The notes under the pieces: generated by a model
Databases searched by the model: none
What the model was told of the DNA's origin: nothing
What the model saw: only the letters and a program-made list of their open reading frames with translations
Program-made: the position numbers and the translations under genes
Shown: positions 12,399 through 43,034 of the stretch, one piece after another
Layout: each line of letters begins with the position of its first letter
How positions within the stretch are numbered: the stretch's first letter is position 1
Assembly (NCBI RefSeq): GCF_937425535.1
Contig: NZ_OW485601.1
Location: forward strand, 2,835,501 to 2,899,500
DNA length: 64,000 nt
Direction: 5' to 3'
Source of the DNA: Rhodovastum atsumiense
Lineage (GTDB): Bacteria; Pseudomonadota; Alphaproteobacteria; Acetobacterales; Acetobacteraceae

Positions 12399-14867
12399 TC
12401 AGCCCGCCCGCGCCGGTGCCGTGAACACCGTCACTTCCGGCGGCATGCCCTGGAATTTCTCGACCTCCGCCATCGTCGTACAGGCCGACGTTGCCTGTGA
12501 CAGCCGCGAGGTCCCGATATCGGGCGTGAGCACGTTCGGGTCGCCGAACTTGCACAGTGTGTCCGGCTTGCCGGGGTCAAGCGGATCGTACCACGCGCCT
12601 TCCTGCAGCCGCAGCACGCCGGGGCGGATATCCTCGGTCACCACGGCGCCGGCGAGGCACTGGCCGCGGTCGTTGAACACCCGCACCGTGTCGCCATCCT
12701 TGATGCCACGGGAGGCGGCATCTGCCGGGTTGATCCAGCAGGGCGAGCGTCCCGCGACCTCGTACAGCTTGCGCACCGCTGCGCTGCCACAGAGCTGTGA
12801 ATGCAGGCGCAGCTCGGGGTGCGAGGAGTTCACGTGCAGCGGATACTTGCCAGGCCTGCCGAGGCGCTCGACCGGTTCCATCCAGGTCGGGTGCGGCGGG
12901 CAGTCCTCGTATTTCATCCGTTCGATGGCGGTTGAGAAAATCTCGATCTTGCCTGAGGGCGTTGGCAACGGGTTGAGCAGCGGGTCCTGCCGGAAGGCGG
13001 CGTATTTGATCCATTTCTTCGATGCGGCGGGAACCTCGAATTCCACTACCCCGGCACCGTTCCAGAAGCTGTCGAAATCCGGCATGGGGATGTTCTTCGG
13101 CTTCGCCGCGGCCAGCGCGGCGTCGTAGCTCGCGCGGATCCAGTCCATCTCCGATTTGCCTTCGGTGAACGGCTGCTCCACCCCCAGGCGCTTCGCCAGA
13201 TCCTTGAAGATGTCGTAGTCATTGCGGGCCTCGAACACCGGGTCGATGATCTTGCGCATCGCCATGATCGCGACGCCGGCAGAAGGGCCGACGCGTTCGA
13301 TGTCGTTGCGTTCCACCGTTGTGGTGGCGGGCAGCACGATGTCCGCCATGCGGGCGCTGGCCGTCCACTGGAAGTCCTGGACGATGAAGGTCTCGAACTT
13401 CTTCCACGCCGCCACCTGTCGATTGCGGTCCTGGTGGTGGTGGAACGGGTTGCCGCCAACCCAGTAGGCGAAGCGCACGTCAGGGTATTTGAAGCGCTTG
13501 CCGTTGTGCTCGTACTCGCCACCCGGGTTGAGCAGCATGTCGACGATGCGGGCGCAGGGGATCACCTTGGTACCGCGGTCTTCGGTCCAGGGCTTGGTTT
13601 CGACGCGCTTGCCGGCCGACATGCCGTTGCCGAGCGGCGGAGCAAGCGACATCGGTGCGCCGCCGCCGTCGATGTGGTAGCGCTGCACGAAGCCACCGCC
13701 GGGCAGGCCGATCTGGCCAAGCATGCAGGCCAGGGTGATCAGCATCCAGGGGGCCTGCTCGCCGTGCTGCTGGCGCTGCGTGGCCCAGCCGCCGACCAGC
13801 ATGGTGCGGTTCTTCGCGAAGCGCCGTGCCAGGTCGCGGATCACCGCCGCCGGGATGCCGCAGATCGCCTCGGCCCATTCGACGCTCTTGGCGATGCCGT
13901 CGGACTTGCCGGTCAGGTAGTCGGCGAAGCGATCGAAGCCACGCGTGCAGTCCTTGAGGAACTTGCTGTCGTGCAGGTTCTCGCTTAGCAGTGTGTGGGC
14001 GATGCCGATCATCATCGCGACGTCGGTGTGTGGTCGTGGCGCGATCCACTCGGCGTTCAACTTCTTGCAGGCATCGGTGCGCACCGGGTCAATGAAAATC
14101 GCCTTCTTGCCCCGCTTCGCCAGCTCGTCGAACCAACCCCAGACCTGATGGTCGGGGATGGCGGCGGAGATGTGGTTGTTGCCGAGCGGGCTGCAGGCCC
14201 AGAACACCAGCAACTCGGTGTTCTCGGTCACGGTGCCGTACGCGGTCTGCTGGCCTTCGGCCTCCACCGAGCCGACCACGTAGGGCATGATGCCCTCGAG
14301 CGCCGCCTTGGAATAGTTGGACGAGGATTCGACATAGCCGCCGCTGAGATTCAGCAGGCGCTTCAGCATCGTCTGCGGGTTGCCGACGCGCCCGGAGCTG
14401 CGCCAGCCATAGCTGCCGCCGAACAGTGCCCAGGGGCCGTGCTCGGCCTGCATGCGACGGATCTCGCCGGCCACCAGGTCGAGCGCCTTGTCCCAGCTCA
14501 CCCGCACGAAGTCGCCCGTGCCCCGGGTCTCGGGGGCGGCACCGGGACCCTGTTCCAGCCAGGCCCGCCGCACCATCGGGTAGCGGATGCGGGCCGGATT
14601 GTAGACGATGTCCTGCACGCCGGCGAGGGTAGGGGAGGGGCGCGGGTCCTTCTCCCAGGGGCGGAGGCTGACGAAGCGGCCGTCCTCGACGCGGGCGTGG
14701 AAGGCGCCCCAGTGCGAGCCGCTCAGGATTTCCTGCGGGCCGGCGGCGCGGGCGCGTCCCGGCATTCCGCCGATCGTGGCTGTCGCGCCGAGCGCGGCGG
14801 CGGAGACCAGCAGCCGGCGCCGCGTCAGCGCACAGGGGCTGGCGGCCTGGGTATCAGGGATGGTCAT
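12399..14867 (-). CDS. torA: Periplasmic TMAO/DMSO reductase, molybdopterin enzyme
   Basis: 822 residues of the DMSO reductase family (bis-MGD, TorA/DorA/BisC branch). A Tat signal (TRRRLLVSAAALGATAT, residues 15-31) directs export of the folded enzyme. The active-site region GGSYGW near 152 contains the Tyr-Gly-Trp triad; the expected Mo-ligand serine follows 31 residues after the Trp, in SSNYSKAALEG. Further blocks are GQIGLPGGGF, NPFHHHQDRN and the C-terminal VRVFNDRGQ domain IV. It reduces N- or S-oxides as terminal acceptor. Start ATG overlaps the torD stop (ATGA), so the two are translationally coupled. Whether TMAO or DMSO is preferred cannot be settled here; the Tyr favours S-oxide use. 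Confidence 0.9.
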   Translation of the reverse strand: MTIPDTQAASPCALTRRRLLVSAAALGATATIGGMPGRARAAGPQEILSGSHWGAFHARVEDGRFVSLRPWEKDPRPSPTLAGVQDIVYNPARIRYPMVRRAWLEQGPGAAPETRGTGDFVRVSWDKALDLVAGEIRRMQAEHGPWALFGGSYGWRSSGRVGNPQTMLKRLLNLSGGYVESSSNYSKAALEGIMPYVVGSVEAEGQQTAYGTVTENTELLVFWACSPLGNNHISAAIPDHQVWGWFDELAKRGKKAIFIDPVRTDACKKLNAEWIAPRPHTDVAMMIGIAHTLLSENLHDSKFLKDCTRGFDRFADYLTGKSDGIAKSVEWAEAICGIPAAVIRDLARRFAKNRTMLVGGWATQRQQHGEQAPWMLITLACMLGQIGLPGGGFVQRYHIDGGGAPMSLAPPLGNGMSAGKRVETKPWTEDRGTKVIPCARIVDMLLNPGGEYEHNGKRFKYPDVRFAYWVGGNPFHHHQDRNRQVAAWKKFETFIVQDFQWTASARMADIVLPATTTVERNDIERVGPSAGVAIMAMRKIIDPVFEARNDYDIFKDLAKRLGVEQPFTEGKSEMDWIRASYDAALAAAKPKNIPMPDFDSFWNGAGVVEFEVPAASKKWIKYAAFRQDPLLNPLPTPSGKIEIFSTAIERMKYEDCPPHPTWMEPVERLGRPGKYPLHVNSSHPELRLHSQLCGSAAVRKLYEVAGRSPCWINPADAASRGIKDGDTVRVFNDRGQCLAGAVVTEDIRPGVLRLQEGAWYDPLDPGKPDTLCKFGDPNVLTPDIGTSRLSQATSACTTMAEVEKFQGMPPEVTVFTAPARAG

Positions 14868-15499
14868 GCACCCATTTCCTCATGGACGTGTTCGGATCCG
14901 GCACACGCAGCCGCGTCTTCCTGCAGCAGGAAGAGGTGCAGCAGCGTGGCCAGGGCGGCGTAGAAGCCGGGCGGGTCGCAGGTGGTGCACGCCGCGGCGA
15001 AGCGTGGCACCCAGCCGAGCAGGCGCTCCCGCAGCGCCGCCACGGCTGTTGCATCGGGATCGGGGGCCGCCAGCAAGGCGGCCATGAGCGACAATTCGAT
15101 GGCCAGGTGATCCGGCGGCTCGCAGCACTCCGCGGCGACGGCGAGCCCATGCGTGGCCAGCAACGTGGCCATTTCCGCGGTCGGTTCCTGAAACAGCCGT
15201 CCGCCCGTGCCGCGCCAGGCGGATTCGCAGGGTGGCACCGTGCCTTGCGGACCACCGGTCCCCAGGAAGAGCCGGCAGAATGCCGCGTTCAACCGGCTGG
15301 TCGCCGTCGGGGTATCGGCGAAGCCGGCGAGCACGGTGCAGGCCCGTTGGAGGGGCGGGCGGCAGACTGGGCGCTGCAGCAGTGCCCCGAGGCAACCGAG
15401 CCGGCCATCCGCCCTCAGCGCGGCAACGTCTTCCTGTTCCAGCGGCGCAGCAAAGAAGGTGGCAAACCCGGCGAAGAGGTCGGCGCGGGACAGGGACAT
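14864..15499 (-). CDS. torD: TorD-family chaperone for the molybdoreductase
   Basis: 211 residues, all-helical, with the family EPPDH motif near residue 121 and conserved AFCRLFLG before it. TorD-type proteins bind the Tat signal and the apo-reductase and assist cofactor loading in the cytoplasm. The start at 15499 gives MSLSRADLFAGFATFFAAPL, a normal TorD N-terminus; the longer open frame overlaps torC and is a shadow. Overlaps torA by four bases and lies 14 bases after torC. It contains several cysteines (CC at 119-120 region, CTTC) that are not generally conserved. Confidence 0.85.
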   Translation of the reverse strand: MSLSRADLFAGFATFFAAPLEQEDVAALRADGRLGCLGALLQRPVCRPPLQRACTVLAGFADTPTATSRLNAAFCRLFLGTGGPQGTVPPCESAWRGTGGRLFQEPTAEMATLLATHGLAVAAECCEPPDHLAIELSLMAALLAAPDPDATAVAALRERLLGWVPRFAAACTTCDPPGFYAALATLLHLFLLQEDAAACAGSEHVHEEMGA

Positions 15500-15513
15500 G
15501 GTGCGGCTTCTGC

Positions 15514-16671
15514 TCAATGCCCCGCGTGCATCTGCAGGTACTTCAACATGAAGCGATACTGCTCGTCGTCGAGCGTGATGTTGTTCTTCATGTCGGCCAG
15601 CGCCCCGGTCCACTGGTTGGGCAGGAAGTGGTTGATCGGCGTCAGCCCGTGGCAGGAACTGCAACTGGCCTGGTACATCTCGGCGCCATAGGCCCAGAGA
15701 CGGTTGATGTCGGAGAACAATCCCTGGCGCTGGACCCACACCGTGAGCGAAACCGGTGTCCAGGTGAGCTCGGTTTCGGGATCCAGCACGGGGGTACCAC
15801 GCTCCAGCTTCTCGGTGGTTTCATCCGGCATCACGGCGGTCATGATGCGCTGGCCCTTGGCCACGTAGATCAGCCGTTCGGCGCCTTCCTGGGCCCAGCC
15901 GCTGACACGCACCTGCACCCAGTCGCCATTGCGCGCCAGCACCTTCACCGGCGAGGCAGGCAGCAGCTTGCCGGCGGACTCTCCATCCTGGGCCGCGGCG
16001 GGACGGTCGAGGAAGAACGGTGTGGTGGCCAGCGTGTAGAGATCGTTCGCCCGCGCACCTTCGCTGGCCGCATCGGCGACCAGTTGCTCCCAGGTGGCGC
16101 GGTAGCCGCTGGACATGTCAGGCAGCTTGTGGGCGATGCCCTTGTGGCAGGCGATGCAGCTCTCGCCCTTGGCAAGGCCCTTGGTCATCTGGTCGGATTT
16201 CGGTCGTTGCTTGTGCGGGTCCATGGCCGACGCGAGGTGACAGGAACGGCACTCACGCGAATCAGTCGCTTCCATCCGGGCCCAGACCTGTTGCGCCATG
16301 CGCAGTCGGTTGCGCTCGAACTTCTCCGGCGTGTCGATGGTGCCCAGCGCCTCGTGCCAGACATCCTTCGCCGCCCCCAGCTTGGCCAGCAGCTTCGGTC
16401 CGGTCTCGTGCGGCACATGGCAATCCGAGCACACCGCACGCACGCCGGAGGCGTTGCGGAAATGTGGCGAGGCCTGGTACTCGGTATAGGGCGCCTGCAT
16501 GCTGTGGCAGGAGACGCAGAATTCCAGCGTGCTTGAACGATCGAGCGCCACCGATACGGCACCGCCGGCGGCAAGCGTGCCGGCCACGGCCACGGCGACG
16601 AGGGCGATCATGCCTCCCAGTCCGATTTTGATGCCAGGCTCGCGCCAGGCTTTTCTGATCCACGCCAGCAT
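15514..16671 (-). CDS. torC: Pentaheme c-type cytochrome, quinol-to-reductase electron carrier
   Basis: 385 residues. One N-terminal membrane anchor (about 15-40) is followed by four NapC/NirT-type haem sites CVSCH (52), CSDCH (81), CRSCH (141), CIACH (172) and a fifth distal site CSSCH (about 342) after a beta-rich linker. This architecture, NapC-like tetrahaem part plus C-terminal mono-haem domain, is that of TorC and distinguishes it from NapC. It takes electrons from menaquinol/ubiquinol and passes them to TorA in the periplasm. First gene of torC-torD-torA. An untranslated leader contains a perfect CGTCCCG-T-CGGGACG dyad (16688-16702). Confidence 0.93.
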   Translation of the reverse strand: MLAWIRKAWREPGIKIGLGGMIALVAVAVAGTLAAGGAVSVALDRSSTLEFCVSCHSMQAPYTEYQASPHFRNASGVRAVCSDCHVPHETGPKLLAKLGAAKDVWHEALGTIDTPEKFERNRLRMAQQVWARMEATDSRECRSCHLASAMDPHKQRPKSDQMTKGLAKGESCIACHKGIAHKLPDMSSGYRATWEQLVADAASEGARANDLYTLATTPFFLDRPAAAQDGESAGKLLPASPVKVLARNGDWVQVRVSGWAQEGAERLIYVAKGQRIMTAVMPDETTEKLERGTPVLDPETELTWTPVSLTVWVQRQGLFSDINRLWAYGAEMYQASCSSCHGLTPINHFLPNQWTGALADMKNNITLDDEQYRFMLKYLQMHAGH

Positions 16672-16786: not shown

Positions 16787-17502
16787 ATGTTATCGGAGCC
16801 ATGCACGACAAGAGGGGCTGCGGCGCAAGGCCGCCATGTGCTGGTGGTGGACGACGAGCCGGTAGCCCGTGAATCGATCACGGCCTATTTCGAGCGCGAA
16901 GGTTTCCGTGTGACCGCCGTGGGCAGTGGTGCCGGCCTGCGCGCTGTGTTGGCGCGGGAAACGCCGGACCTGCTGTTGCTGGATATCCGTCTGCCTGACG
17001 AAGATGGATTGGCCATCATGCGCGAATTGCGCGCCCAGAGTGCCCTGCCGGTGATCCTGGTTTCGGCCCGGGGGGACGAGGTGGATCGCGTGCTGGGCCT
17101 GGAGCTCGGTGCCGATGATTATGTCACCAAACCGTTCTCGCCGCGTGAGCTGCTGGCGCGGGCCCGCACCGTGCTGCGTCGGATCGGTGCCAGTTCGTAT
17201 TCATCCGGGCCGGACCGCATGGTTCGTCGTTTCGCGGGCTGGAGCATTGACTTTTCGCTTCGGCGCCTGACCTCGCCGGGCGGGGAGGAGGTGCGGTTGA
17301 CGCGCGGCGAATTCGACCTGCTCGCCGCGCTGGCGCGCCGGCCGGGGCACGTGCTGACGCGCGACAGCCTGCTGGATGCGATCAGCCATCGCGACTGGGC
17401 GCCCAATGACCGGACCGTGGATGTTCTCGTGGCACGGCTGCGCCGCAAGATCGAGGCGGATCCGGCGCATCCACGGCTGATCGTGACGGAGCACGGCATC
17501 GG

Positions 17503-17521
<19 letters not shown>
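16787..17521 (+). CDS. torR: OmpR-family response regulator of the tor genes
   Basis: 244 residues: receiver domain (about 17-130) with acidic DDE pair, phospho-acceptor Asp in LLLDIRLPDEDG, Thr/Ser in LVSARGD and Lys in VTKPFSPREL; then a winged-helix OmpR_C DNA-binding domain ending in VTEHGIGYALHA. Divergent from torC and convergent with the TorS-like kinase, with which it overlaps by 19 bases at the 3' ends, so the pair is almost certainly a working two-component system. The ATG at 16787 has GAGGGTGG close by and a strong AGGAGG 18 bases upstream that is out of the usual range. Confidence 0.85.
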
Positions 17522-20268
<2,747 letters not shown>

Positions 20269-20407
20269 GCCTGCCCCTTTCATGCACGCAGGCCCGTCAG
20301 CCCGATGCTGCCCATGCCGGTCCCTACGCGCGCATGTCTCTGTGTCGGCAAGCGCACTTGCGGTTGCCGCGGCGCACGGGCCTGCTGGCCGTCCCGAAGG
20401 TGCCCAG
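20269..20407. promoter_or_regulatory. Divergent torS / nosR-like intergenic region
   Basis: 139 bases that must contain promoters for the sensor kinase and the NosR-like protein. I recognise no FNR-type dyad and no convincing -35/-10 pair on either strand. Confidence 0.3.
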
Positions 20408-21928
20408 ATGTTTCACCTGCCCCGTGCCAGTCTGCATCGACCTGCGACGATCCTGGTCTGCATCGCGCTTGGACTTGCCCTGGCCGGTCCCGTCCGCGCC
20501 CAGCGTCTTGCCGATCTGCTGGGCCAGGTTGCGCCGTCCGCGCTCGTTCCCGGCACCGATCGCTTCGGCCCGCCGGAGGGCACGCCGCCGCGCGCCCCGG
20601 CCTATGCGGGCAATCGGTTGCTGGGCTGGGCCTATCTCAATACCGATGTCACCGCCACGCCGGGCTATGCGGGCTGGCCCATCCTGATCCTGGTCGGCCT
20701 CGGCACCGACTGGAGAATCAGCGGCGTGAAGCTGGTGGAGCATCACGAACCGCTGCTGCTGAGCGGGGTGCCCCCCGAGCGTATCGACGCACTGGTGCAG
20801 AGCTATGTCGGCAGTGACATCGACGGCATCACCTCGATCGCGGAACGCCGCCCGGTGGATCTGATCAGCGGTGCCACGGTGAGCATGATGGCGATCGGCG
20901 ATTCCATCCTGCGCTCGGCTGTCCTGATGTTTCGCCAGTACGGCGGTATCGTGACCGGGGGGCAGGCGGCCACGCCATCTGACCAGGCCGATGCCGGGAA
21001 CGTCCCGTTGGCCGATCCGCCCATGTGGCATGCCTTGTGGCAGGCGAGTTCCGGGCGGATCGCCGTGCTGGCGGCGGCCCTGCTGGTGCTGACGGTGATT
21101 TTCTTCTGCCAGGATTGGTTCGCGCGCCGACCCGTGCTGTACGACAGGCTGCGACTGGGCTTTCTTGCCTTCACCCTGCTCTGGCTTGGCTGGTATGCGC
21201 AGGCGCAGCTTTCGGTGGTGAACGTGCTCGCCTTCGCCGCGGCCCTGCGGGCGGACTTCCGGTGGGATGCGTTCCTGGCCGCGCCGCTGATCTTCATCCT
21301 GTGGTCGGCCACCGCGGTGGCAGTGCTGTTCTGGAATCGCGGCGCTTTCTGCGGCTGGCTTTGTCCCTATGGTGCGGCGCAGGAATTGCTCAACCGCTTT
21401 GCCCGCGCGCTTGGCTTGCGGCAATGGGCCGTTCCGCATGCCGTGCATCAACGCCTCGGTGCGATAAAGTACGTGCTGTTCCTCGGCTTGTTCGGCGTCT
21501 CGCTCGGGGCCTTCGCTGCGGCCGAGCGCCTGGCGGAGCTGGAACCGTTCAAGACCGCCATCGTCCTGCGCTTCGTGCGGGACTGGCCCTTCGTGCTTGC
21601 CGCGCTGGCGCCGTTGCTTGCCGGCCTGGTCGTCGAGCGCTGTTTTTGTCGCTATCTGTGCCCGCTCGGTGCCGCCCTGGCGATTCCAGCGCGGCTGCGC
21701 CTGTTCGATTGGTTGCGCCGGCACCGTGATTGCGGCACCCCCTGTCAGCGCTGCGCCCATGCCTGCCCGGTGCAGGCCATCGAACCGGACGGGCGCATCA
21801 ATCCCAACGAATGCATCCAGTGCCTGCACTGCCAGATGCTGTACCATCACCGTGACAAATGTCCTGCGAGGATCAAGGGCCGCCGCAGGCAAGAGATGTG
21901 CGGGGGCAACCTGCGGGCGGAGGGGTGA
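20408..21928 (+). CDS. Short NosR/NirI-family membrane flavoprotein with Fe-S domain
   Basis: 506 residues. Signal/anchor at about 10-30, FMN-binding domain with the flavinylation motif DLISGATVSMM (SGAT at 154-157; the Thr would carry FMN), then a membrane core starting near 205 with FCGWLCPYGA and CRYLCPLGA cysteine pairs, and two C-terminal 4Fe-4S motifs CQRCAHACPVQAIE and CIQCLHCQMLYHHRDKCP. It is clearly a paralogue of the NosR at 39917-42085 but lacks about 215 residues, the periplasmic insert between the FMN domain and the first core helix. It should carry electrons across the membrane. Between torS and a second molybdoreductase, it more likely feeds that enzyme than NosZ; this is inference. 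Confidence 0.85.
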   Translation: MFHLPRASLHRPATILVCIALGLALAGPVRAQRLADLLGQVAPSALVPGTDRFGPPEGTPPRAPAYAGNRLLGWAYLNTDVTATPGYAGWPILILVGLGTDWRISGVKLVEHHEPLLLSGVPPERIDALVQSYVGSDIDGITSIAERRPVDLISGATVSMMAIGDSILRSAVLMFRQYGGIVTGGQAATPSDQADAGNVPLADPPMWHALWQASSGRIAVLAAALLVLTVIFFCQDWFARRPVLYDRLRLGFLAFTLLWLGWYAQAQLSVVNVLAFAAALRADFRWDAFLAAPLIFILWSATAVAVLFWNRGAFCGWLCPYGAAQELLNRFARALGLRQWAVPHAVHQRLGAIKYVLFLGLFGVSLGAFAAAERLAELEPFKTAIVLRFVRDWPFVLAALAPLLAGLVVERCFCRYLCPLGAALAIPARLRLFDWLRRHRDCGTPCQRCAHACPVQAIEPDGRINPNECIQCLHCQMLYHHRDKCPARIKGRRRQEMCGGNLRAEG

Positions 21929-21955
21929 CCCGTTGCCGGCGATCCGACGGCAGGC

Positions 21956-21990
21956 GGGGCGGAAGAGCATTCCGAAGGCTCTTCCACCCC
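21956..21990 (+). terminator. Hairpin between nosR-like gene and second molybdoreductase
   Basis: A stem with the perfect core GGAAGAGC/GCTCTTCC (21961-21968/21978-21985), extended outward by GGGG/CCCC with one mismatch, 28 bases past the nosR-like stop. No T-run follows. The genes converge, so it may serve both. Confidence 0.55.
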
Positions 21991-22042
21991 GTCCGTGCCA
22001 CCCCGGCGCTCCATGCATGGGGCACCGGGGCAGTGGCCGCTG

Positions 22043-24421: not shown

Positions 24422-24820
24422 TGTTCCTGTCTCCTGCCGTGTGCCAGGTTTGATTGGGCCCGGCCGGCGCAAATGCGCGGCAAGTGTTTTTGGGCCGATA
24501 TGAGATTTGCGGCCATATCATCGCGCGTCCTTGATGCAGGTCAATTCGTGCAAAGTACGAAGTATTCAAACTACTCTGTGAGATCAGTGCAGGACCGTGA
24601 GTGGCGCTATGCTTGGCCGTGCATGACGATCTGATGCGGACGTTGCTCGCACGAAGGAATTTCTTTTTAAGGAACGAATTTTATCTGCAATGAAATAGCC
24701 GGCAGCCATCCTGCGCTGGCCCGGTTATCACCTTCCCCCGGTCATCGCCTTCCCATCATCGTGCGTGCGGCAACCGCCTTCCTGTCCGGTGCTTTCCCTC
24801 GGCATCAGCGGGAGGGGCGC
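24422..24820. promoter_or_regulatory. Upstream region of the second molybdoreductase
   Basis: About 400 bases between divergent genes. It contains the FNR-like box described separately and an AT-rich stretch around 24653-24695 (TTTCTTTTTAAGGAACG). No open frame here looks like a gene. Confidence 0.4.
24531..24544 (-). promoter_or_regulatory. FNR/Anr-type box upstream of the second molybdoreductase
   Basis: TTGATGCAGGTCAA on the plus strand (TTGACCTGCATCAA on the gene's strand) matches the TTGAT-N4-ATCAA dyad at nine of ten positions. It lies 110 bases before the start codon. The -10 hexamer is less clear than at gudP (candidates ATATGG or CATATC downstream). Confidence 0.6.
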
Positions 24821-32941: not shown

Positions 32942-33424
32942 TCACCAGTCGAAGAACGTGAGCCCATGCACGCCGGCGACGGCCCCGGCCACGGTCAGCA
33001 GCCCCAGCCCCAGCAGGACCCGGTGCAGGGTTTCGACCCGGCGGTAGGTCGCTTCCGGCCGCCGTGTCGCCGCCCGCTGCAGGTACGCGTCCAGGAACAG
33101 CGGCTCCAGCACGAACAGCATGACGGTGAACACCGCCCAGGTCAGCACCATGGCGTGCATCCACCAGAATTCCGCCATCGCGAACCGATCCCAGAGTTCC
33201 AGACGCCAGGCCATGTAGAAGCCGCTCGCGCCGGTCAGGGCGGTGGTCCAGCGGGATTGCCGGGCGAAGCCGTGCTCGATGACGTGGAATTGCGCCATCC
33301 GCTCGGGGGCTGCGTGGCGGCGGCGGATCACCGGCAGCAGGATGGTGGTGACCATGGCGACGCCGCCGATCCACAGCACCACGGCCACGACATGCAAGGC
33401 GCGGGCAAGCGTGATGTCCGTCAT
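32942..33424 (-). CDS. Four-helix integral membrane protein at the end of the nos operon
   Basis: 160 residues with four hydrophobic segments (about 7-30, 58-75, 85-110, 133-155). Histidines occur near the helix ends (RALHVV at 11, FHVIEH at 46-50, WWMHAM near 89, ETLHRV near 132), a spacing reminiscent of CopD-like or haem-binding four-helix proteins. Its ATG overlaps the nosX stop (ATGA at 33421-33424), so it is the last cistron of the nos operon. I do not know a standard nos gene of this kind; a copper or haem role is speculation. Confidence 0.6.
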   Translation of the reverse strand: MTDITLARALHVVAVVLWIGGVAMVTTILLPVIRRRHAAPERMAQFHVIEHGFARQSRWTTALTGASGFYMAWRLELWDRFAMAEFWWMHAMVLTWAVFTVMLFVLEPLFLDAYLQRAATRRPEATYRRVETLHRVLLGLGLLTVAGAVAGVHGLTFFDW

Positions 33425-34401
33425 GCCAGGATCACGCGCGTGCCATCGGTCCGGGCTACGTGCACCGTCACGCCGGCCTGCCGCGCCAGTTCCGCCACGC
33501 GTTCGGGCGGCAGCAGCGAAAACGCGGTGGACAGCGCATCCGCCGTGGTGGCGTCGGGGGCGATCACCGAGATCGCCGCATAGCGCCAGCTCGAACGTCC
33601 GTCCGCCGGATCGAAGATGTGATTGAAGCGGCCGGCCGCGTCGAAGCGCGTGCCATAGCCACCCGATGTCGCCACCGCGCGGTTGCGCAGGGGAATCGTC
33701 TCGGCGATCTGGCCGGGGGCGGCCGGATCCTCCAGCCCGACCTGCCAGGCATCGCCCATGGGATGGCCGCCGAGCGCGCGGGCCTCGCCCATGTCCACCA
33801 GCGCCTGCGTGATCCCGTTGGCGCGCAGCCTTTCAACCACGCGGTCGGTGACGTAGCCCTGGGCGATGCCGTTCAGCGTGATGGCGGTGCCGGGCCGCAG
33901 CGTGATCTGATCCGCGTCGAGGTGGATGCGGTGTTGCCCGACCCGGTCCAGGGCGGCGGCGACCGCCTCGGCCGGTGGCCCCGCCGGATCCGCGCCGGCG
34001 CGGGCGAAATGCCCCGCATAAAGATCCCACAAGGGCTGCACCGTCACGTCGAAGGCACCATCGGTCAGCGCATGGAAACGCGCGGCCTCGGCCAGCAGGC
34101 GCAGCAGGTCGAAGGGGGGCGCCGCCAGCGCACCGTCACGGTTCAGTCGCAGCAGCGCCGAATCGGGCTGATAGAGGCTGAGCTGCCGCTCCAGCCGTGC
34201 CACCTCGTCCAGGCTGTCGCGGATCAGACGTCGCGCCTCTGCCGGATCGGGATGATGCAGTTGCAGCTCCGCATTGGCGCCGAGCGCGCTGCCGCGCCAG
34301 ACATGCAGCATCGGTTGCGGCGCGGCGTGGGGCGCGAGCAGCGGCAGCCCGGCCATGGCGGCCGAGATGGCAATGAAGCGGCGGCGGCGCAGCGGGGTCA
34401 C
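33421..34401 (-). CDS. nosX: NosX: ApbE-family FMN transferase of the nos operon
   Basis: 326 residues. A Tat signal (LRRRRFIAISAAMAGLPLLA) leads into the ApbE fold: SLYQPDSALLRLN, TDGAFDVTVQPLW, ITLNGIAQGYVTDRV, ALVDMGEARALG and VATSGGYGTRF with the C-terminal DATTADALSTAFSLL Mg2+ site. It transfers FMN from FAD to the SGAT threonine of NosR. The GTG start at 34401 overlaps the nosL stop (GTGA), and the earlier frame gives an unrelated Arg-rich leader. It is the only ApbE gene in the window and so may also serve the NosR-like protein at 20.4 kb. Confidence 0.93.
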   Translation of the reverse strand: MTPLRRRRFIAISAAMAGLPLLAPHAAPQPMLHVWRGSALGANAELQLHHPDPAEARRLIRDSLDEVARLERQLSLYQPDSALLRLNRDGALAAPPFDLLRLLAEAARFHALTDGAFDVTVQPLWDLYAGHFARAGADPAGPPAEAVAAALDRVGQHRIHLDADQITLRPGTAITLNGIAQGYVTDRVVERLRANGITQALVDMGEARALGGHPMGDAWQVGLEDPAAPGQIAETIPLRNRAVATSGGYGTRFDAAGRFNHIFDPADGRSSWRYAAISVIAPDATTADALSTAFSLLPPERVAELARQAGVTVHVARTDGTRVILA

Positions 34402-34898
34402 GACCGTTCTCCGTCGGGGAAGATATAGGCCGGCGGGATTTCGGAGAAACGCAGCACCTGGCCGCCATTCTCGGCGGCGAAGCGGTGCGCCGCCGCGGCC
34501 TCGCCGAAGGGGATCGCCTCGTCGGTCTGCATGCCGCTGCGCCGGCGGCTGCCGATGACGAACAGTGCCTGCTGTGCCGTCACCCATGTCTCAGGCTGGT
34601 CCCAGTCGCGGGCGCGGGCCATGTCGCTGACATAGATGGCGGCGATGTCCCTGGGCATCTCGGGCAACATGGTGAAGGCGATGGCGTCGCGCACGGTAGA
34701 GAACCAGTAGGGATCGGCACGGTCGCGCACGAAGATCTGCCCCTTCGGCCCCGGGTGTTCGTCGAGCGACATGCCGCAGAACGTGCCGATGGCGGCGGCG
34801 GTCACCGGGCGCGGCGGTGGTGGGGCCTCGGCCCGCTCCTCCTTGCAGGCGACGACCGGAAGCGCGAAGCAGGCGGCGAGGAAGCGGCGGCGGTGCAT
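34398..34898 (-). CDS. nosL: NosL copper chaperone lipoprotein
   Basis: 166 residues with a lipoprotein signal MHRRRFLAACFALPVVAC (cysteine 18 lipidated) preceded by an RRR motif. The mature part contains FCGMSLDEHPGPKGQIFV, the Cu(I)-binding CGM motif of NosL, and YVSDMARARDWDQPETWV. Supplies copper to NosZ for CuZ assembly in the periplasm, probably with NosDFY. Lies 11 bases after nosY. Confidence 0.93.
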   Translation of the reverse strand: MHRRRFLAACFALPVVACKEERAEAPPPPRPVTAAAIGTFCGMSLDEHPGPKGQIFVRDRADPYWFSTVRDAIAFTMLPEMPRDIAAIYVSDMARARDWDQPETWVTAQQALFVIGSRRRSGMQTDEAIPFGEAAAAHRFAAENGGQVLRFSEIPPAYIFPDGERS

Positions 34899-34909
34899 GA
34901 CGGTCTCCT

Positions 34910-35734
34910 TCAGACCGGACGACGGGCGAACAGCGCGGCGGCGGCGGCGAGCGGCAGGGCGATCCAGGCCAGCAGCGCCGCGGTCAGCACCGCGGGCGTC
35001 AGCGCGGATCGGCCGGCGATATCGGCCAGCCCCGCGAACACGCCGACCCCGGCCCCCGAGAGATTGAGTAGCCGGTAGGCATCGGCGGGATTGAGCAGCA
35101 GCAGCGCGTCCAGCAGGCCCGCCGTGACGGTGCGGCCCTGGTCGGCCACCAGCAGGCCCAGCAGTGCCATGTCCCAGATCAGCACGCAGCCGAGCCAGAT
35201 GCCGATGGCGATCCCCCCGGCCGTGCCGCGCTCGCGCACCTGCGTGCTGACCAGGGTGCCGATGGCGACGAACACCGCGCCGAGCAGCACGGATGATCCG
35301 ATCAGCGCCGCGAATTCTGGCCAGGCGTCCGCTTCAGCGCCGCCCGTCGCGGTCAGCGCGGTCGCGGCGGCGCCGAAGCCCACGGTGGTGGCGAAGGCCA
35401 GGATGGCGACATGGCCGGCGAACTTGCCCAGGATCACCTGCCAGCGCGCCACCGGATAGGCGAGCAGCAGCGCCAGCGTGCCGCGCTCCGCCTCGCCGAC
35501 GATGGTGTCGTGCGACAGCAGCAACGCGATCAGCGGCAGCAGGAAGATCGAGAGGCTGGAGAGGCTGACAATGGTGACGGCGAGGGGGCTGGCTTTCACC
35601 GCGCCGGTCGGGGCGGCGCCGAGGAAGGCCAGCGTCAGCGCGAAGACGGCCAGCAGCAGCGTGGTGGCGAGCACCCAGCGATTGCGCAGCCCGTCGCGCA
35701 CTTCCTTGGTGGCGAGCAGCAGCACGGTCCGCAT
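34910..35734 (-). CDS. nosY: NosY ABC transporter permease
   Basis: 274 residues, six membrane helices, with the family block LIALLLSHDTIVGEAERGTLALLLAYPVARWQVILGKFAGH in the first half and LLLLNPADAYRLLNL before the fifth helix. It forms the membrane part of NosFY, which drives NosD for maturation of the NosZ copper site. ATG overlaps the nosF stop by one base (TGATG). Confidence 0.94.
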   Translation of the reverse strand: MRTVLLLATKEVRDGLRNRWVLATTLLLAVFALTLAFLGAAPTGAVKASPLAVTIVSLSSLSIFLLPLIALLLSHDTIVGEAERGTLALLLAYPVARWQVILGKFAGHVAILAFATTVGFGAAATALTATGGAEADAWPEFAALIGSSVLLGAVFVAIGTLVSTQVRERGTAGGIAIGIWLGCVLIWDMALLGLLVADQGRTVTAGLLDALLLLNPADAYRLLNLSGAGVGVFAGLADIAGRSALTPAVLTAALLAWIALPLAAAAALFARRPV

Positions 35735-37910: not shown

Positions 37911-37912
37911 GG

Positions 37913-39862
37913 TCAGGCGCTCTTCGGACGCACGAGCATGCGACCCGACATCTCCATGTGCAGGGCATGGCAGAACCATTGGCAATACCACCAGTGCACG
38001 CCCGGCCGGTCGGCGACGAAGGTCACCGAGGCGGTCTGCTGCGGGCCGATCTCCATGGCGATGCCGTGCCGCACCAGGGTGAAGCCGTGCGTCAGGTCCT
38101 CCACGTCGTCCATGTTGGTGACGTACACGGTGACCTCGTCGCCCTGGTTCACCTCGAATTTCTCGAGGCTGTAGGCGGGTGCGATCGAGGTCATGTAGAC
38201 CCGCACCCTGGTGCCGTCGCGGATGACGTGGGCGGCCTCTTCCAGCTTCACTCCGTCCTTCGCCGCCTGCCGACGCGCGTCATCCCATGTCGGGTCGTCG
38301 CGCTTCCAGATGCTGATCGGGTTCACCTTGGAGCGGTGGACAAGGCAGATGTCATGCGGCTCGGCGAAGCTCGGGCCGTCATGCACCAGCTTCATCTGGT
38401 CGCCGGAGATGTCGATCAGCTGGTCGTTCTCGGGCTTCAGCACGCCGGTGTTGAGGAAACGGTCCTTGCTGAACTTGTTCAGCGACACCAGCCATTTCCC
38501 GTCGGCCTCGCGGGTCTCGCCCATCGAGGTGTGGTTGTGGCCGGGCTGGTAGTGCACATCCAGCTTCTGGATGATGGGGTCGACCTTCTCGCCGGCGAAG
38601 GCGCGGCGGGCCTTGTCGATGTTCCACTTCACCATCTGGCTGTCGATGAACACCGTGGTGTAGGCGTTGCCCTTGCCGTCATAGGCGGTGTGCAGCGGGC
38701 CGAGCCCCAGTTCCGGCTCGGCGACGACGATGCCGCGCGGCTGGATCTTGTCGGCGAACAGGTCGTCCAGCCGGCGCACGTCGATCACGGTGACGGTGGG
38801 CGAGAGCTTGCCGTTGAACACCACGTGGATGCCGTCGGGCGCGGTGTTGCAGCCATGCGGGGAGTTCGGCACCGGCAGGTAGCGGGTGTATTTCGAGCCG
38901 CGACGGCCATCGACCACCTTGACCCCGCCCATCTGCTTGAAGTCGCTACGCTGGATGGCGCCCTCGATCGCCTTGATGTCGAAGATCACCGCCCAGGCCT
39001 GCTCGTGGTCCGTCATCTCGGCGACGGTGACGCCCTTGTTCGGGTTGTAGCAGGTCGAGAAGGCGTATTTGCCCTGGTAGTCGGCATCGCAATTGTCGAG
39101 GTTGCCGTCGACCAGCACCTGCCAGGCCACCTCCATCCTGTCGCCGTCGATGGCGGTGAACACCGACCAGTAGTTCTTCGGATCGTCCAGCACGGAGCCG
39201 TCGTTGGGGATGGGGATGACGTGCTCGCTGTTGGCGAAGACGTAGCCGGTGCGTGGGAACTTCTGTGGGCGCAGGCCGTGGATGTCCGACGCGTTCGGGA
39301 TCTCGATGATCCTGTCAGTCTTCATCACGTCGCAGCGGATGCGGGCGACGCGGCAATTGGCCTTGTCGTTGATCCACAGGTAGCGCCCGTCATAGGTACC
39401 GTCGGTGAAGGACATGTGCGGGTGGTGGGCATCGCCGTTGTGGTAGTCGAGCGCATCGCCCGATGCCTGTCCGCCATACCGCTTGCGCAGGAATTCCTTG
39501 GTGGAGGGCAGCAGGCCCTCGGTCAGGATCTTCTTGCTCTCGTTGGTCAGGCCCCAGCCGGTGGCGCTGCAGCGGTTGAACACCGGGATGCGCATCAGCT
39601 CGCGCATCGACGGCAGGCCGATGATCCGCACCTCCCCGGTCTGGCCGCTCGAGGAGAAGCCGTAATATTCATCGAGGTCGCCCGGTTTCACGTCGGCACC
39701 CTGGCTGCCGCGCGCGGCCGGGCGGGTCTGGGCCAGGGCCTCGTGGCCGAGGGCCAGGCCACCGGCGCCGGCGGCGAGCCCCGCCAGCGCCGCGGTGGCG
39801 GTACTGCCCAGCAGGCCCCGGCGGCGCAGGCCCGTGGCGTCGTGCGGTGTATCATCGCTCAT
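37913..39862 (-). CDS. nosZ: Nitrous oxide reductase, clade I
   Basis: 649 residues. The N-terminus has a Tat signal ([21 protein letters not shown]), marking clade I. The beta-propeller carries CuZ His motifs [49 protein letters not shown] and EPHDICLVH; the C-terminal cupredoxin domain has the CuA motif [17 protein letters not shown]. It reduces N2O to N2 in the periplasm. Preceded by nosR with a 54-base gap. All metal ligands are present, so the enzyme should be active. Confidence 0.98.
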
Positions 39863-39916
39863 GTGAGGCTTCCTTCGGCGTGGCGCCTGCCGGCGCCTGG
39901 GCGGATCGGCGCGCCG

Positions 39917-42085
39917 TCATGCGACGGGCTCCGTGGTTGGCCGCTTCGGCGCGGGCCGGGGCGGCGGGGGCGGCGGCGCGGAAGCGGCATATTTCTCGCG
40001 CTTCAGCCGGCGCTGGATCATGACCGGGCATTTGCGGTCATGGTGGTAGAGCATCTGGCAGTGCAGGCACTGGATGCATTCGTTGGGATTGATGTGGCCT
40101 TCCGGGTGGATGGCCTGCACCGGGCACTCGTTGCCGCAACGCTGGCAGGGATTGCCGCATTCGCGGTAGCGGCGCAGCCAGTCGAACAGGCGCAGCCGTG
40201 CCGGGATCGCCAGCGCGGCGCCGAGCGGGCAGAGATAGCGGCAGAAGAAGCGCTCGATGAACAGATTCGCCGCCAGCAGGCCGACGGCGTAGAGCACGAA
40301 GGGCCAGCTGCGGAAGAAGCGCAGCACGATCGCGGTCTTGAACGGCTCCACTTCGGCGCCGATCTCGGCGGTGGCAAGCGCGCCCAGCGAGATACCGAAC
40401 AGCACCAGGAAGACGACGTATTTGACCGCGGTCAGGCGCTGGTGGAGGGCGAAGGGCAGGCGCAGTTGCGGGATGCCCACAAGACGGGCGCCCCGGTTGG
40501 TCAGTTCCTGCAGCGCGCCGAAGGGGCACAGCCAGCCGCAGAAGGCGCCGCGGTTCCAGAACAGCATGGACGCGGCGGTGGCGAACCACAGGCTGAAGAT
40601 CAGCGGGGCCATCAGGAAGTAGTCCCAGCTGAACTCGCTGCGCAGCGCCGAGAGGAAGGCGAGCACGTTGACCACCGAGAGCTGCGCCTGCGCGTACCAG
40701 CCGATCCAGACCAGGGTGAAGGTCAGGAAGCCGAGCCGCACCCGGTCGTAGAGCACCGGGCGGCGCGCGAACCAGTCCTGGAAGAAGAACACGGCCGTCA
40801 GCACCAGCAGCGCCACCGAGAGCACGACGATCTTCCCGGCGCTGGCCCACCACATCGCCTGCCACAGCGGCGGTGCCGGTGTGGCGGCGATCGCTGCCGG
40901 CGCGGCGGGCGGCGTGGCCACGGGGCGGAGGTATTTCGATGGAAGATCGTAGGTGAGATCGACCGTCAGGAACGCCTTGTCGCGTCCGGTGGTGGCACGC
41001 TGCACCAGCAATTGCAGTCGCCAGGGGGCGGTCGGATCGAGCCGGTCGCCATCGGGCACGACGAACAGGTCGGCCTCGGCGAAGTCCGGCGCGCCCGCGG
41101 CCTCGGCGCCGCCGAGGCGGCGGTGGTTGCGGTCGCGGAAGCGGATGGTCTGGTCGCCCTGCAGCACGGTGAAGCGATCGAAGATGCCGCCGCGCACATA
41201 GCCCGATCCCTTGAAGGAATAGGCACCATTGGCGAACACCACGATCGCCTGCCCCCCCGGTGGCAGGCTGGCCCGCAGCCGGTCATATTCGGCATCGCCG
41301 AGCAGGCTGCGGCCGATCGCCGGCACGCTGACCGGGGCGACGTAGAGGTCGATGAAATCCTGTGCCGGGTCGTCGCGCTCCGGACGGCCTGCGGCCACGG
41401 CATTGCCGGCGTGGGCGAAGCTGTCGCTGATCTCGCCCACGGTCAGGTGCAGCCGCCGCACCGAGCCGTCGCCCAGCAGGTCCGCCCAGCTTTCCGTGCC
41501 CGTCCGGGTCTCGTCCAGCACGCGGGTCGGGGCGGCGGGGGCTGCCTGGGGCTGGGCTCCGATGCCGTGCAACTGCGCCATGCGTTCGGCGCTGCGCAGG
41601 ATCGAATCGCCGATCACCATCACCGTGACCGTGGCGCCGCTGACGATGTCCACGGGGGGGCGTGCCGAGCCTGTCGAGATCCCGCCCACATCACGCCCGA
41701 CATAGCCGGCGATGAAGGCATTGATGCGCGCCGGCGGAATGCCGATCAGCACGATTGGCTCATGGTGCTCGACCAGTTTCGCGCCGGTGATTTTCCCGTC
41801 GGCGCCAAGCCCCACCAGGATGCGGATCGGCTTGCCGGAATAGCCCACGGCCGGGCCGACATCGGTGTTCAGGTAGATCCAGCCCAGCAGTTTCTGGCCG
41901 GCATAGGCGGCGGCCGAGGGCGGCGTACCCGCGGACGGGGCGAGGCGGTCGGCCCCGGGCACGAGATCGGATGGTGTGATATCGGAAAGAAAACTGTCGA
42001 GCTGACCGGCACGTGCTTCGCCGATAACGGCGAGGGCAAGAAAAAGTGCAGCTACAACCAGTGCCTTTCGGCACATGTCAAGCAT
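39917..42085 (-). CDS. nosR: NosR: membrane iron-sulfur flavoprotein for N2O respiration
   Basis: 722 residues. Signal helix (about 7-26), FMN domain with flavinylation motif DIVSGATVTVM near 147-157, a large periplasmic insert (about 180-390), a helical core with FCGWLCPFGA and CRYLCPLGA, and C-terminal 4Fe-4S motifs CQRCGNECPVQAIH and CIQCLHCQMLYHHDRKCP. It donates electrons to NosZ and supports nos transcription. ATG 42085 was chosen because GGGGGAAACGTCGTG precedes it and the signal peptide then begins correctly; the 40 extra upstream residues run into the divergent gene. First gene of nosRZDFYLX. Confidence 0.95.
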   Translation of the reverse strand: MLDMCRKALVVAALFLALAVIGEARAGQLDSFLSDITPSDLVPGADRLAPSAGTPPSAAAYAGQKLLGWIYLNTDVGPAVGYSGKPIRILVGLGADGKITGAKLVEHHEPIVLIGIPPARINAFIAGYVGRDVGGISTGSARPPVDIVSGATVTVMVIGDSILRSAERMAQLHGIGAQPQAAPAAPTRVLDETRTGTESWADLLGDGSVRRLHLTVGEISDSFAHAGNAVAAGRPERDDPAQDFIDLYVAPVSVPAIGRSLLGDAEYDRLRASLPPGGQAIVVFANGAYSFKGSGYVRGGIFDRFTVLQGDQTIRFRDRNHRRLGGAEAAGAPDFAEADLFVVPDGDRLDPTAPWRLQLLVQRATTGRDKAFLTVDLTYDLPSKYLRPVATPPAAPAAIAATPAPPLWQAMWWASAGKIVVLSVALLVLTAVFFFQDWFARRPVLYDRVRLGFLTFTLVWIGWYAQAQLSVVNVLAFLSALRSEFSWDYFLMAPLIFSLWFATAASMLFWNRGAFCGWLCPFGALQELTNRGARLVGIPQLRLPFALHQRLTAVKYVVFLVLFGISLGALATAEIGAEVEPFKTAIVLRFFRSWPFVLYAVGLLAANLFIERFFCRYLCPLGAALAIPARLRLFDWLRRYRECGNPCQRCGNECPVQAIHPEGHINPNECIQCLHCQMLYHHDRKCPVMIQRRLKREKYAASAPPPPPPRPAPKRPTTEPVA

Positions 42086-42167
42086 CACGACGTTTCCCCC
42101 GAGGCGGGTGTACACTGTCCGGGATCCCAATGCGAGTTGCGATGTTTCCCGGATCAGGGAGATAGCC
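42086..42167. promoter_or_regulatory. Divergent nosR / ferritin-like control region
   Basis: Only 82 bases separate the two divergent starts, so promoters must overlap. I see no FNR/NnrR-type dyad. GTGTACAC (about 42109-42116) is a perfect 8-base palindrome and a possible regulator site. Confidence 0.35.
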
Positions 42168-43034
42168 ATGCACAATCCGCCACCGCTGCCGCCCCCGCTC
42201 GCCACGGCCGAGGACCTGCTTGCCCTGGCCCAGGCGCTCGAACAGGAGGCGGCGTCGCGCTACCAGGACCTCGCGGCGCGGATGCAGGGGCGCGGCGAGG
42301 CAGACCTCGCGCGCCTGTTCACGCAGCTTGCCGAAGTGGAGGGCAAGCACGCCCGGCAGGTGGAAAGCCGCAGCCTGCGCCTGTTCGGAACCCCGCCCGA
42401 TCCGGCGCGCGTGCGCTGGGACCTGCCGGAGAATTTCGACGAGGAAGCCGCGCGCTCGGCCAGCCTGACGCCCTATGCCGCACTTGTCATCGCGGTGCGC
42501 AACGAGGAACGGGCCTTCGCTTTTTACTGCCACGTCGCCGCGGCGGCGCCGCCGGCGGTGGCGGCCATCGCCGAGGATCTGGCGCGGGAGGAACTGGATC
42601 ATGCCGCGTGGCTCCGCCGGGCCCGGCGGGAAGCGTGGCGCCGCGAGGGGCGGCGGCCGCGGCCGGTTTTGCCGGAAGATGTGGCGGCATTGCGGAACAG
42701 CGTGATGGTGGGCCGGGCGGCGATGGCACGGCTGCACGCGGCGCTGGCGCTATCCCTGCAGGCGGCGGGCGAAGCGGCGCTGGCCGTGATCTTCCGGCAG
42801 ATCGCGGAGGAAGAAGCATCCGGCATCGTGGCGGAGGAGTCCTGTCCGGGCGTGCAGGATGGACTGCGCGTCCTGGAGGAGGAATTCGAGCGGCTGGCTG
42901 ATATCGCCGCACGCAGCAGCGATTCCGCCATGGTCGCACTGGCCCAGGAAGAAGCGGAACGGACGCTGCGCTGGCTGGCCCGCGCCGGCGGGGCCTGGCG
43001 CAACGAATTGCTGCAGCCGGTGGCACCCGCCTGA
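42168..43034 (+). CDS. Rubrerythrin/ferritin-like di-iron protein
   Basis: 288 residues. The N-terminal half is a four-helix bundle with di-iron motifs: ALEQEAASRYQDLAAR, EVEGKHARQVE (ExxH), RNEERAFAFYCH and EDLAREELDHAAWLRRAR (ExxH). The C-terminal half is a second helical region (MARLHAALALSLQAAGEAALAVIFRQIAEEEASG) without obvious metal ligands. No rubredoxin CxxC module is present. Such proteins handle iron or peroxide stress. The ATG at 42168 follows CAGGGAGATAGCC. Its divergent pairing with nosR suggests shared regulation; role in N2O metabolism is unproven. Confidence 0.8.
   Translation: MHNPPPLPPPLATAEDLLALAQALEQEAASRYQDLAARMQGRGEADLARLFTQLAEVEGKHARQVESRSLRLFGTPPDPARVRWDLPENFDEEAARSASLTPYAALVIAVRNEERAFAFYCHVAAAAPPAVAAIAEDLAREELDHAAWLRRARREAWRREGRRPRPVLPEDVAALRNSVMVGRAAMARLHAALALSLQAAGEAALAVIFRQIAEEEASGIVAEESCPGVQDGLRVLEEEFERLADIAARSSDSAMVALAQEEAERTLRWLARAGGAWRNELLQPVAPA

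Follow-up and report, generated by a model that had tools for sequence, protein, structure and literature searches.

A shortened NosR paralogue beside a TorA/DorA-family molybdoenzyme in Rhodovastum atsumiense: a candidate flavin-linked electron relay

The gene considered here lies in a 64,000-nucleotide stretch of the Rhodovastum atsumiense genome (bases 2,835,501-2,899,500 of contig 1, in a 7.42 Mb genome of 9 contigs), referred to below as the window. It encodes a short paralogue of NosR, which we call sNosR (20408..21928, + strand). The gene order is torA, torD and torC (- strand), torR (+), torS (-), sNosR (+), a molybdoenzyme gene that we call P0003 (-), and then the nos cluster (-). This order agrees with a preliminary description of the DNA, which placed sNosR between torS and a second molybdoenzyme of the trimethylamine N-oxide (TMAO)/dimethyl sulfoxide (DMSO) family. 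The torS and sNosR genes are divergent, with 124 nt between them. P0003 (22043..24421, - strand; TTG start, 792 residues) was assigned by profile searches, alignment and tree to the TorA/DorA family, in a branch termed here the KSSW clade. The claim that this enzyme lacks both a TorC and a TorD of its own is correct for its immediate neighbourhood; the torC and torD genes of the tor operon lie about 5-7 kb off. The nos cluster (33421-42205, - strand) is complete, with nosR, nosZ, nosD, nosF, nosY, nosL and apbE, and thus has its own NosR. sNosR stands outside it, at a distance of 11.5 kb.

The sNosR reading frame encodes 506 residues and contains no internal stop. An upstream ATG at 20198 is also in the open frame and would give 576 residues; the start at 20408 yields an N-terminus that, judged by eye, resembles a signal peptide. 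The GC content at the three codon positions (0.69/0.51/0.81) resembles that of four neighbouring genes. The protein is predicted to consist of a signal peptide, a periplasmic domain binding flavin mononucleotide (FMN), a membrane domain with two CxxxCP motifs and a C-terminal ferredoxin-like domain, with the topology taken from that of NosR. The FMN_bind domain spans residues 86-166 (20663..20905, +; Pfam PF04205, 1.9e-5) and contains the flavinylation motif SGAT at residues 154-157 (20867-20878, +). The membrane domain matches Fer4_5 (Pfam, 2.7e-16) and carries CGWLCP at residues 315-320 (21350..21367, +) and CRYLCP at residues 414-419 (21647..21664, +). Two 4Fe-4S motifs follow, C442-C446-C449-C453P and C469-C472-C475-C485P (21731..21865, +), which occupy invariant columns in alignments of 3 and 23 sequences. 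All 12 motif cysteines are invariant in the 2 short and 21 long NosR forms of the larger alignment. The translation, motifs and alignments therefore bear out the earlier account of a 506-residue NosR paralogue that keeps SGAT, both CxxxCP motifs and both 4Fe-4S motifs. From these features sNosR looks like a genuine electron carrier.

The NCBIfam NosR model matches two stretches of sNosR (2.9e-157), and the better of the two covers model positions 386-680. The NF046105 NosR cut-off of 1000 bits is missed both by sNosR (524.9) and by the true NosR of the window (814.1), and so does not discriminate here. At 814 bits the latter gene (39917-42205) may not be labelled NosR by automatic annotation. 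A PHROGs scan of sNosR returned a single family without known function, in the membrane/Fe-S part (2.4e-16). A sequence search of the PDB for NosR relatives gave 12 matches at E<=10, all weak (best 0.2), and found no relative.

NosR carries a periplasmic FMN and two cytoplasmic 4Fe-4S clusters, is flavinylated by ApbE and is the probable donor to NosZ; NosX of Paracoccus has been proposed to flavinylate NosR in the manner of ApbE (PMC7660919, PMC5928378, PMC12052999). Its role has also been called not well understood, comprising regulation and possibly electron donation to NosZ (PMC7660919). sNosR shares with NosR the order of its parts, from the FMN domain with SGAT through the membrane domain with two CxxxCP motifs to the two 4Fe-4S motifs. 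The full-length protein differs in being encoded in the nos cluster and in having about 206 more residues between the FMN and membrane domains. This size follows from the distance between the landmarks ILRSA and PP[ML]W, which is 37 residues in sNosR and 243 in the NosR of the window. The loss of a periplasmic insert is thus confirmed, and the earlier figure of about 215 residues is slightly too large. Outside the insert, the two proteins are 58% identical in the FMN domain and 72% identical in the membrane/Fe-S part.

The motif [S/T]GA[S/T] is the target of ApbE (PMC8238504). The nosX/apbE flavin transferase gene of the window (33421..34587, - strand; profile match) is the sole ApbE match found in the genome, and sNosR is one of two FMN_bind proteins detected there. 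The ApbE of the nos cluster is therefore the likely FMN source for both NosR and sNosR, and it would attach FMN at Thr157 of the latter. sNosR also agrees with the definition of flavinylated NapH-like systems, a PF12801 membrane protein with an FMN-binding domain, if its extracytosolic placement is taken from NosR. In the systems described by Meheust et al. (2021), the partners include nosZ, pceA, nitrite reductase and exaA/ethanol oxidase (PMC8238504). As in sNosR, an FMN domain is fused there to a Fer4_5 membrane domain, and it is used modularly with different reductases or oxidases (PMC8238504). Unlike in those descriptions, sNosR stands by a molybdoenzyme, and the ApbE of the nos cluster is 11.5 kb distant from it. 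RdhC/PceC proteins likewise have an FMN domain, two CxxxCP motifs and an external loop shorter than that of NosR (PMC5928378). The C-terminal pair of 4Fe-4S motifs retained in sNosR is, however, absent from PceC, and no reductive dehalogenase was recognised among the window open reading frames (ORFs) scanned.

The preliminary description called for a search for NosR proteins of about 500 residues and a tabulation of their neighbours. Four overlapping samples were searched. Matches were obtained in 4 of 60 relatives (E limit 1e-3), 53 of 385 genomes from the class (1e-60), 23 of 397 from the family (1e-20) and 66 of 398 from the phylum (1e-30). Across these samples, one further complete short form was found, a protein of 498 residues (L004) in a genome of the same genus (G006, 91% complete). 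The other matches were long frames or checked fragments and included no further short form; the searches were not aimed at more diverged short proteins, for instance PceC-like ones. Among 212 plasmid records that matched sNosR, no short form was present in those opened from the 40 best and 60 spread matches.

Several apparent short forms were rejected. In L060, L062, L157, L064 and L066 a long NosR is truncated by a contig end or divided between frames, L036 is a long NosR, and G122:C127 and G950:C1 hold pieces of long-type genes that reach a contig end and have NosZ next to them. H108, from Variovorax, has 702 residues and seemed short through a single aligned piece. The candidate G114:C80:77906 is a headless NosR of 376 residues, comprising the membrane/Fe-S half with no recognisable FMN domain upstream. 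This headless gene (L201:742-2956, contig 80 of G114) has ApbE behind it, and the same genome holds a full-length NosR (L036). Two or three NosR-like genes per genome also occur elsewhere (three places each in G498, G113 and G264, two each in G762 and G094); the extra genes are partly divergent, as in L065, and perhaps serve other acceptors.

The relationship of the two short forms was examined with 75 sequences, in one tree built from 150 columns of the FMN part and another from 300 columns of the membrane/Fe-S part. sNosR and L004 form one clade in both, with support of 100/98 and 98/93, respectively. In the FMN tree, their sister group is the NosR of the window together with one NosR from the family (99/88). 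In the membrane/Fe-S tree the placement of the short forms is less sure, because L004 has a long branch (2.07) and an unusual composition and the midpoint root is located on the two short forms themselves. The simplest history would be that nosR was duplicated once within this lineage and that one copy then lost the insert.

It has to be considered whether such a duplicate is functionless and decaying. Only two copies were found, the long branch and composition of L004 could indicate decay, the FMN_bind domain of L004 is missed by Pfam, and the headless ORF of G114 demonstrates that damaged NosR genes exist. Both short forms, however, retain all motif cysteines and the flavinylation motif (SGAT in sNosR, SGAS in L004), and the sNosR frame is open with normal codon use. 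In the FMN part the short forms are 64% identical to each other, above the best match of either to any long NosR in the set (58% for sNosR and 52% for L004). We therefore consider decay highly improbable.

The genome that encodes L004 also bears on whether sNosR is a backup donor to NosZ, that is, a second NosR for N2O reduction. Such a role would suit the 72% identity to the local NosR in the membrane/Fe-S part and the nos cluster only 11.5 kb away. NosZ and a long NosR were, however, not found in G006, within its 91% completeness; the insert is lost; and the sNosR gene lies outside the nos cluster. Among seven searched genomes of the genus, NosZ was matched in one, that of the window itself, where nosZ (37913..39862, - strand; homology match) is the sole match in the genome. 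A backup role is accordingly very unlikely. Because G006 holds a short form with no NosZ or long NosR found, the short NosR probably has a role outside N2O reduction.

The gene immediately before L004 encodes a lactaldehyde-reductase-like iron alcohol dehydrogenase, and L004 overlaps the next ORF by 11 bases. This ORF leaves the available sequence after about 38 residues; it has a signal-like start, as ApbE proteins have. ApbE was not found in G006 by the Pfam model, and no molybdoenzyme lies on the 3 kb contig of L004. The proposed survey of short forms and their neighbours thus yielded one other case in the sampled genomes, and the neighbour there is an alcohol dehydrogenase.

P0003 is 46% identical to the TorA of the window and falls below the family cut-offs, scoring 931.1 bits with TIGR00509 (cut-off 1017.55), 755.7 with PRK15102 (909) and 717 with TIGR02164 (1465). 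The window TorA scores 1071.1, 939.8 and 897.4 bits, respectively, and thereby exceeds only the TIGR00509 and PRK15102 cut-offs. A scan of named genomes with P0003 gave 64 loci, of which seven are 69-76% identical and the remainder at most 51%. We define the KSSW clade by 11 members: these seven loci, one in the same-genus genome G003, two from genomes of the Rhodopseudomonas order, and the window. In a tree of 76 sequences the clade has a Shimodaira-Hasegawa-like approximate likelihood ratio (SH-aLRT) support of 100% and a stem of 0.77.

The clade takes its name from the segment KSSWSSNHAH, residues 144-153 of P0003 (23963..23992, - strand), located by alignment with the DMSO reductase of R. 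sphaeroides (1eu1). The pattern KSSWxSNHAH, with one extra residue, is present in all 11 members. At the same segment the 66 other aligned sequences have SYGW (61), TADW (2), TYGW (1) or QTGW (1), with one masked. Relative to 1eu1, Tyr114 is replaced by Ser in P0003 and Trp116 is kept; we take both positions (DorA numbering) to line the substrate pocket. The P0003 segment NYSNQ aligns with DYSTG and keeps its serine, presumably the Mo ligand. The KSSW clade is apparently an uncharacterised branch of S/N-oxide-type reductases.

P0003 belongs to the same TorA/DorA family as the enzymes of the donor-reductase pairs DorC-DorA and TorY-TorZ and of TorC-TorA, and three of its relatives have TorC directly behind them. 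It differs from TorC-TorA-type systems in lacking an adjoining TorC and in having KSSWxSNHAH where most of the others have SYGW. The three relatives with TorC directly behind the enzyme on the same strand are L072 (Rhodoplanes tepidamans), L187 and L188. A fourth locus, L071, has in front of the enzyme a stand-alone protein resembling the TorC tail (TorC residues 211-383, 35%), with one CxxCH and no Pfam match. The tail domain of TorC has been proposed as the electron donor to TorA (PMC11727998). In two further loci, L073 (Pinisolibacter aquiterrae) and L074 (Rhodopseudomonas rhenobacensis), a DUF2271 protein and a PepSY-flavodoxin-ApbE fusion stand in front of the enzyme. There, a tor operon, DUF2271, the fusion and the KSSW enzyme follow one another on one strand (L073:6426-12376 and L074:6970-12373), L073 also having mobB. 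This arrangement is a possible flavin-linked molybdoreductase operon, with a stronger gene order than that of the window. DUF2271 is an ApbE substrate (PMC8238504). These flavinylated systems occur beside a related molybdoenzyme in both species; their membrane protein is unrelated to sNosR. Such systems have been linked to iron reduction (PMC8238504). In other systems, flavinylated relays and cytochromes substitute for each other (PMC8238504). Since relatives of P0003 adjoin TorC, a TorC-tail-like haem protein or a flavinylated module, a flavin donor for a KSSW-clade enzyme is plausible; the case for such a donor of the NosR type rests on one genome.

Outside the clade, L127 is the only one of the 64 loci with a NosR-like gene nearby, a long form truncated where its contig stops. 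A NosR-like gene named dorX was considered for Rhodobacter dor loci and dropped, the term occurring, among the papers listed, only in an unrelated one. A Cereibacter sphaeroides plasmid dor locus contains a cytochrome and TorA, with no NosR-like annotation within 12 kb and no tblastn match to sNosR.

We propose that sNosR is a lineage-internal duplicate of NosR that has lost its insert and gained a new electron acceptor, most likely P0003, and we put the probability of this reading at roughly 0.4. The segment lost is the periplasmic one of about 206 residues, and the NosR relay would be kept as a whole. The cytoplasmic 4Fe-4S domain, the quinol pool or both would send electrons across the membrane to the periplasmic FMN, attached by the ApbE of the nos cluster. 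From there they may pass to P0003, presumed to be an S/N-oxide-type reductase that is exported and has a remodelled pocket. Direct observations are the sequence with its motifs, the loss of the insert, the phylogeny, a second short form in a genome where NosZ was not found (G006) and the donors beside the relatives. The flavinylation of sNosR, the direction of electron flow, the export of P0003 and, above all, the identity of the partner are inferred. P0003 is the best single candidate acceptor because it has no adjoining donor, some of its relatives lie near haem or flavin donors, and exchanges of this kind are described elsewhere. The idea in the preliminary description of a NosR-like relay feeding a molybdoreductase thus stands as regards an insert-less relay, a likely role outside N2O reduction and the donors of the relatives; the specific pairing was seen once.

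Several observations weigh against P0003 as the acceptor. The pairing of sNosR with a KSSW enzyme occurs in one genome only; no KSSW-clade enzyme was found in G006 at 91% completeness, and tblastn detected no NosR-like gene in the available flanks of the 10 other clade loci. The two genes are convergent on opposite strands and form no operon. The TorC of the window is nearby and could supply P0003. No recognised donor was found near four of the 11 clade loci (L069, L070, L075 and L181, with flanks that are partly short), and the KSSW enzyme therefore seems able to work without an adjoining one. The flavin module of L073 and L074 also adjoins torA and may not serve the KSSW enzyme. Flavin modules are near 3 of 11 clade loci and 1 of 57 others when the window is included (p = 0.012), which is suggestive only. 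When the window is excluded, the counts are 2/10 and 1/57 (p = 0.056), and p rises to 0.26 if the sister loci L073 and L074 are counted once. Finally, the export of P0003 is not certain because the second arginine of the twin-arginine signal is Ser: the segment reads TRSDF, followed by a hydrophobic stretch and an AxA-like site (24340-24421, by eye). Across the clade this position is Arg-Ser in seven of 11 members, including P0003, and Arg-Arg in four. A cytoplasmic enzyme could not receive electrons from a periplasmic FMN.

Regulatory signals that would link the two genes were not found. A strong hairpin lies between their stop codons (21953..21993; z -3.85 in the fold of 21929-22045), and since the genes are convergent with this hairpin between them, they are separate transcription units. 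The hairpin could be a shared terminator; it has no T-run and is absent from the four terminator-like sites of our scan, which found no T-run terminator between sNosR and P0003. An FNR-type box, TTGATGCAGGTCAA, was found at 24531..24544, about 110 nt upstream of P0003; it is one of two in the 64-kb window that deviate from the consensus at no more than one position, and none was found upstream of sNosR at this threshold. A further point against joint function is that no motif shared among the torC/torR, sNosR and P0003 upstream regions clearly exceeded the shuffled background. The torC/torR and torS/sNosR regions share seven 12-mers (shuffled maximum, six), which are GC-rich stretches and were not taken as a motif. 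These upstream regions also gave no match at one mismatch or fewer to the TorR box of E. coli.

The same data bear on whether sNosR instead supports TorA/TorC, as a second electron entry or as a redox input to TorS. The divergence from torS over 124 nt would fit such a role, as would two Hyphomicrobiales loci in which a DUF2271/PepSY-ApbE module between torA and the KSSW enzyme could serve either. TorA, however, has its own TorC, no promoter motif shared with the tor regions rises above background, and the tor locus of Azospirillum thermophilum has no annotated NosR-like gene, nor did tblastn detect one in L079-L084. We regard a Tor-related role as quite unlikely.

It is somewhat less likely than the P0003 reading that sNosR serves some other periplasmic acceptor, such as an oxidoreductase whose gene lies elsewhere, or runs in reverse from an oxidation, and that the adjacency of P0003 is accidental. 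L004 adjoins the iron alcohol dehydrogenase gene with no molybdoenzyme on its 3 kb contig. NosR-like proteins of about 700 residues with ApbE directly following also lie beside genes for pyrroloquinoline quinone (PQQ) biosynthesis or dehydrogenase on plasmids of Leisingera thetidis (L198:4684-7673), a Rhodobacteraceae strain (L199:1748-7664) and Variovorax paradoxus (L197:8945-14296). NapH-like clusters contain nitrite reductase or ethanol oxidase (PMC8238504). On the other hand, the alcohol-linked NosR-like proteins retain the length of NosR, and no PQQ dehydrogenase was recognised in the subset of window ORFs scanned. The alcohol dehydrogenase beside L004 belongs to a family of cytoplasmic enzymes. 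Because the three PQQ-linked proteins keep about 700 residues, the 206-residue insert is unlikely to be just a segment for binding NosZ. Two opened Roseobacter-type matches annotated as 4Fe-4S binding proteins (694 and 697 residues) stand with ApbE and PQQ genes; a third, from Azoarcus KH32C (720 residues), has neither nearby.

If P0003 is the acceptor of sNosR, the flavin-for-cytochrome exchanges of Meheust et al. would extend to the DMSO reductase family. A natural insert-less NosR in a genome where NosZ was not found separates the relay core from the role of the insert, and through it the idea that NosR can donate electrons to acceptors of various kinds can be tested directly. A broader scheme, which we consider unlikely as a whole, would make the KSSWxSNHAH enzymes a subfamily with interchangeable donors. 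These would be TorC-like haem proteins, the DUF2271/PepSY-ApbE module and, here, a trimmed NosR with a periplasmic FMN in the place of the five TorC haems, the relay having arisen by insert loss from a nosR duplicate. The general class of such systems is known; we found no description of the short form, of its location apart from nos or of the KSSW clade. The preliminary description did not know the pairing of NosR with a molybdoreductase as a described system. Among the papers listed by our text searches, whose coverage mostly excludes subscription journals, none describes by title and abstract a NosR-like donor to a molybdoreductase. The partners named in PMC8238504 and given above include no molybdoenzyme, and its main text does not contain DMSO or words beginning with molybd; that of a 2024 mSystems paper (PMC11334425) contains neither such words nor TMAO or sulfoxide.

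The remaining genes of the window were assigned as follows. The full-length NosR (39917..42205, - strand; profile and homology matches) has 762 residues as listed, with a GTG start that is probably too early. torA (12399..14867, -) passes the BisC-family cut-off of TIGR00509 quoted above. It is followed, in order of coordinates, by a torD-like chaperone (14864..15739, -; PF02613, 9.7e-26; PRK04976, 4.2e-26, below its cut-off), the true start of which is probably internal to the listed ORF, and by a torC-like pentahaem cytochrome of the NapC/NirT type (15514..16671, -; PF03264, 1.7e-63; TIGR02162, 7.8e-124, below its cut-off). The torR-like response regulator (16787..17521, +; PRK10766, 4.2e-72) and the torS-like hybrid sensor kinase (17503..20283, -; TIGR02956, 9e-128) also score below their cut-offs. 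A second torC-torA pair is present in the same genome (L196:6271-10540; contig 1, about 4.73 Mb), some 1.9 Mb distant.

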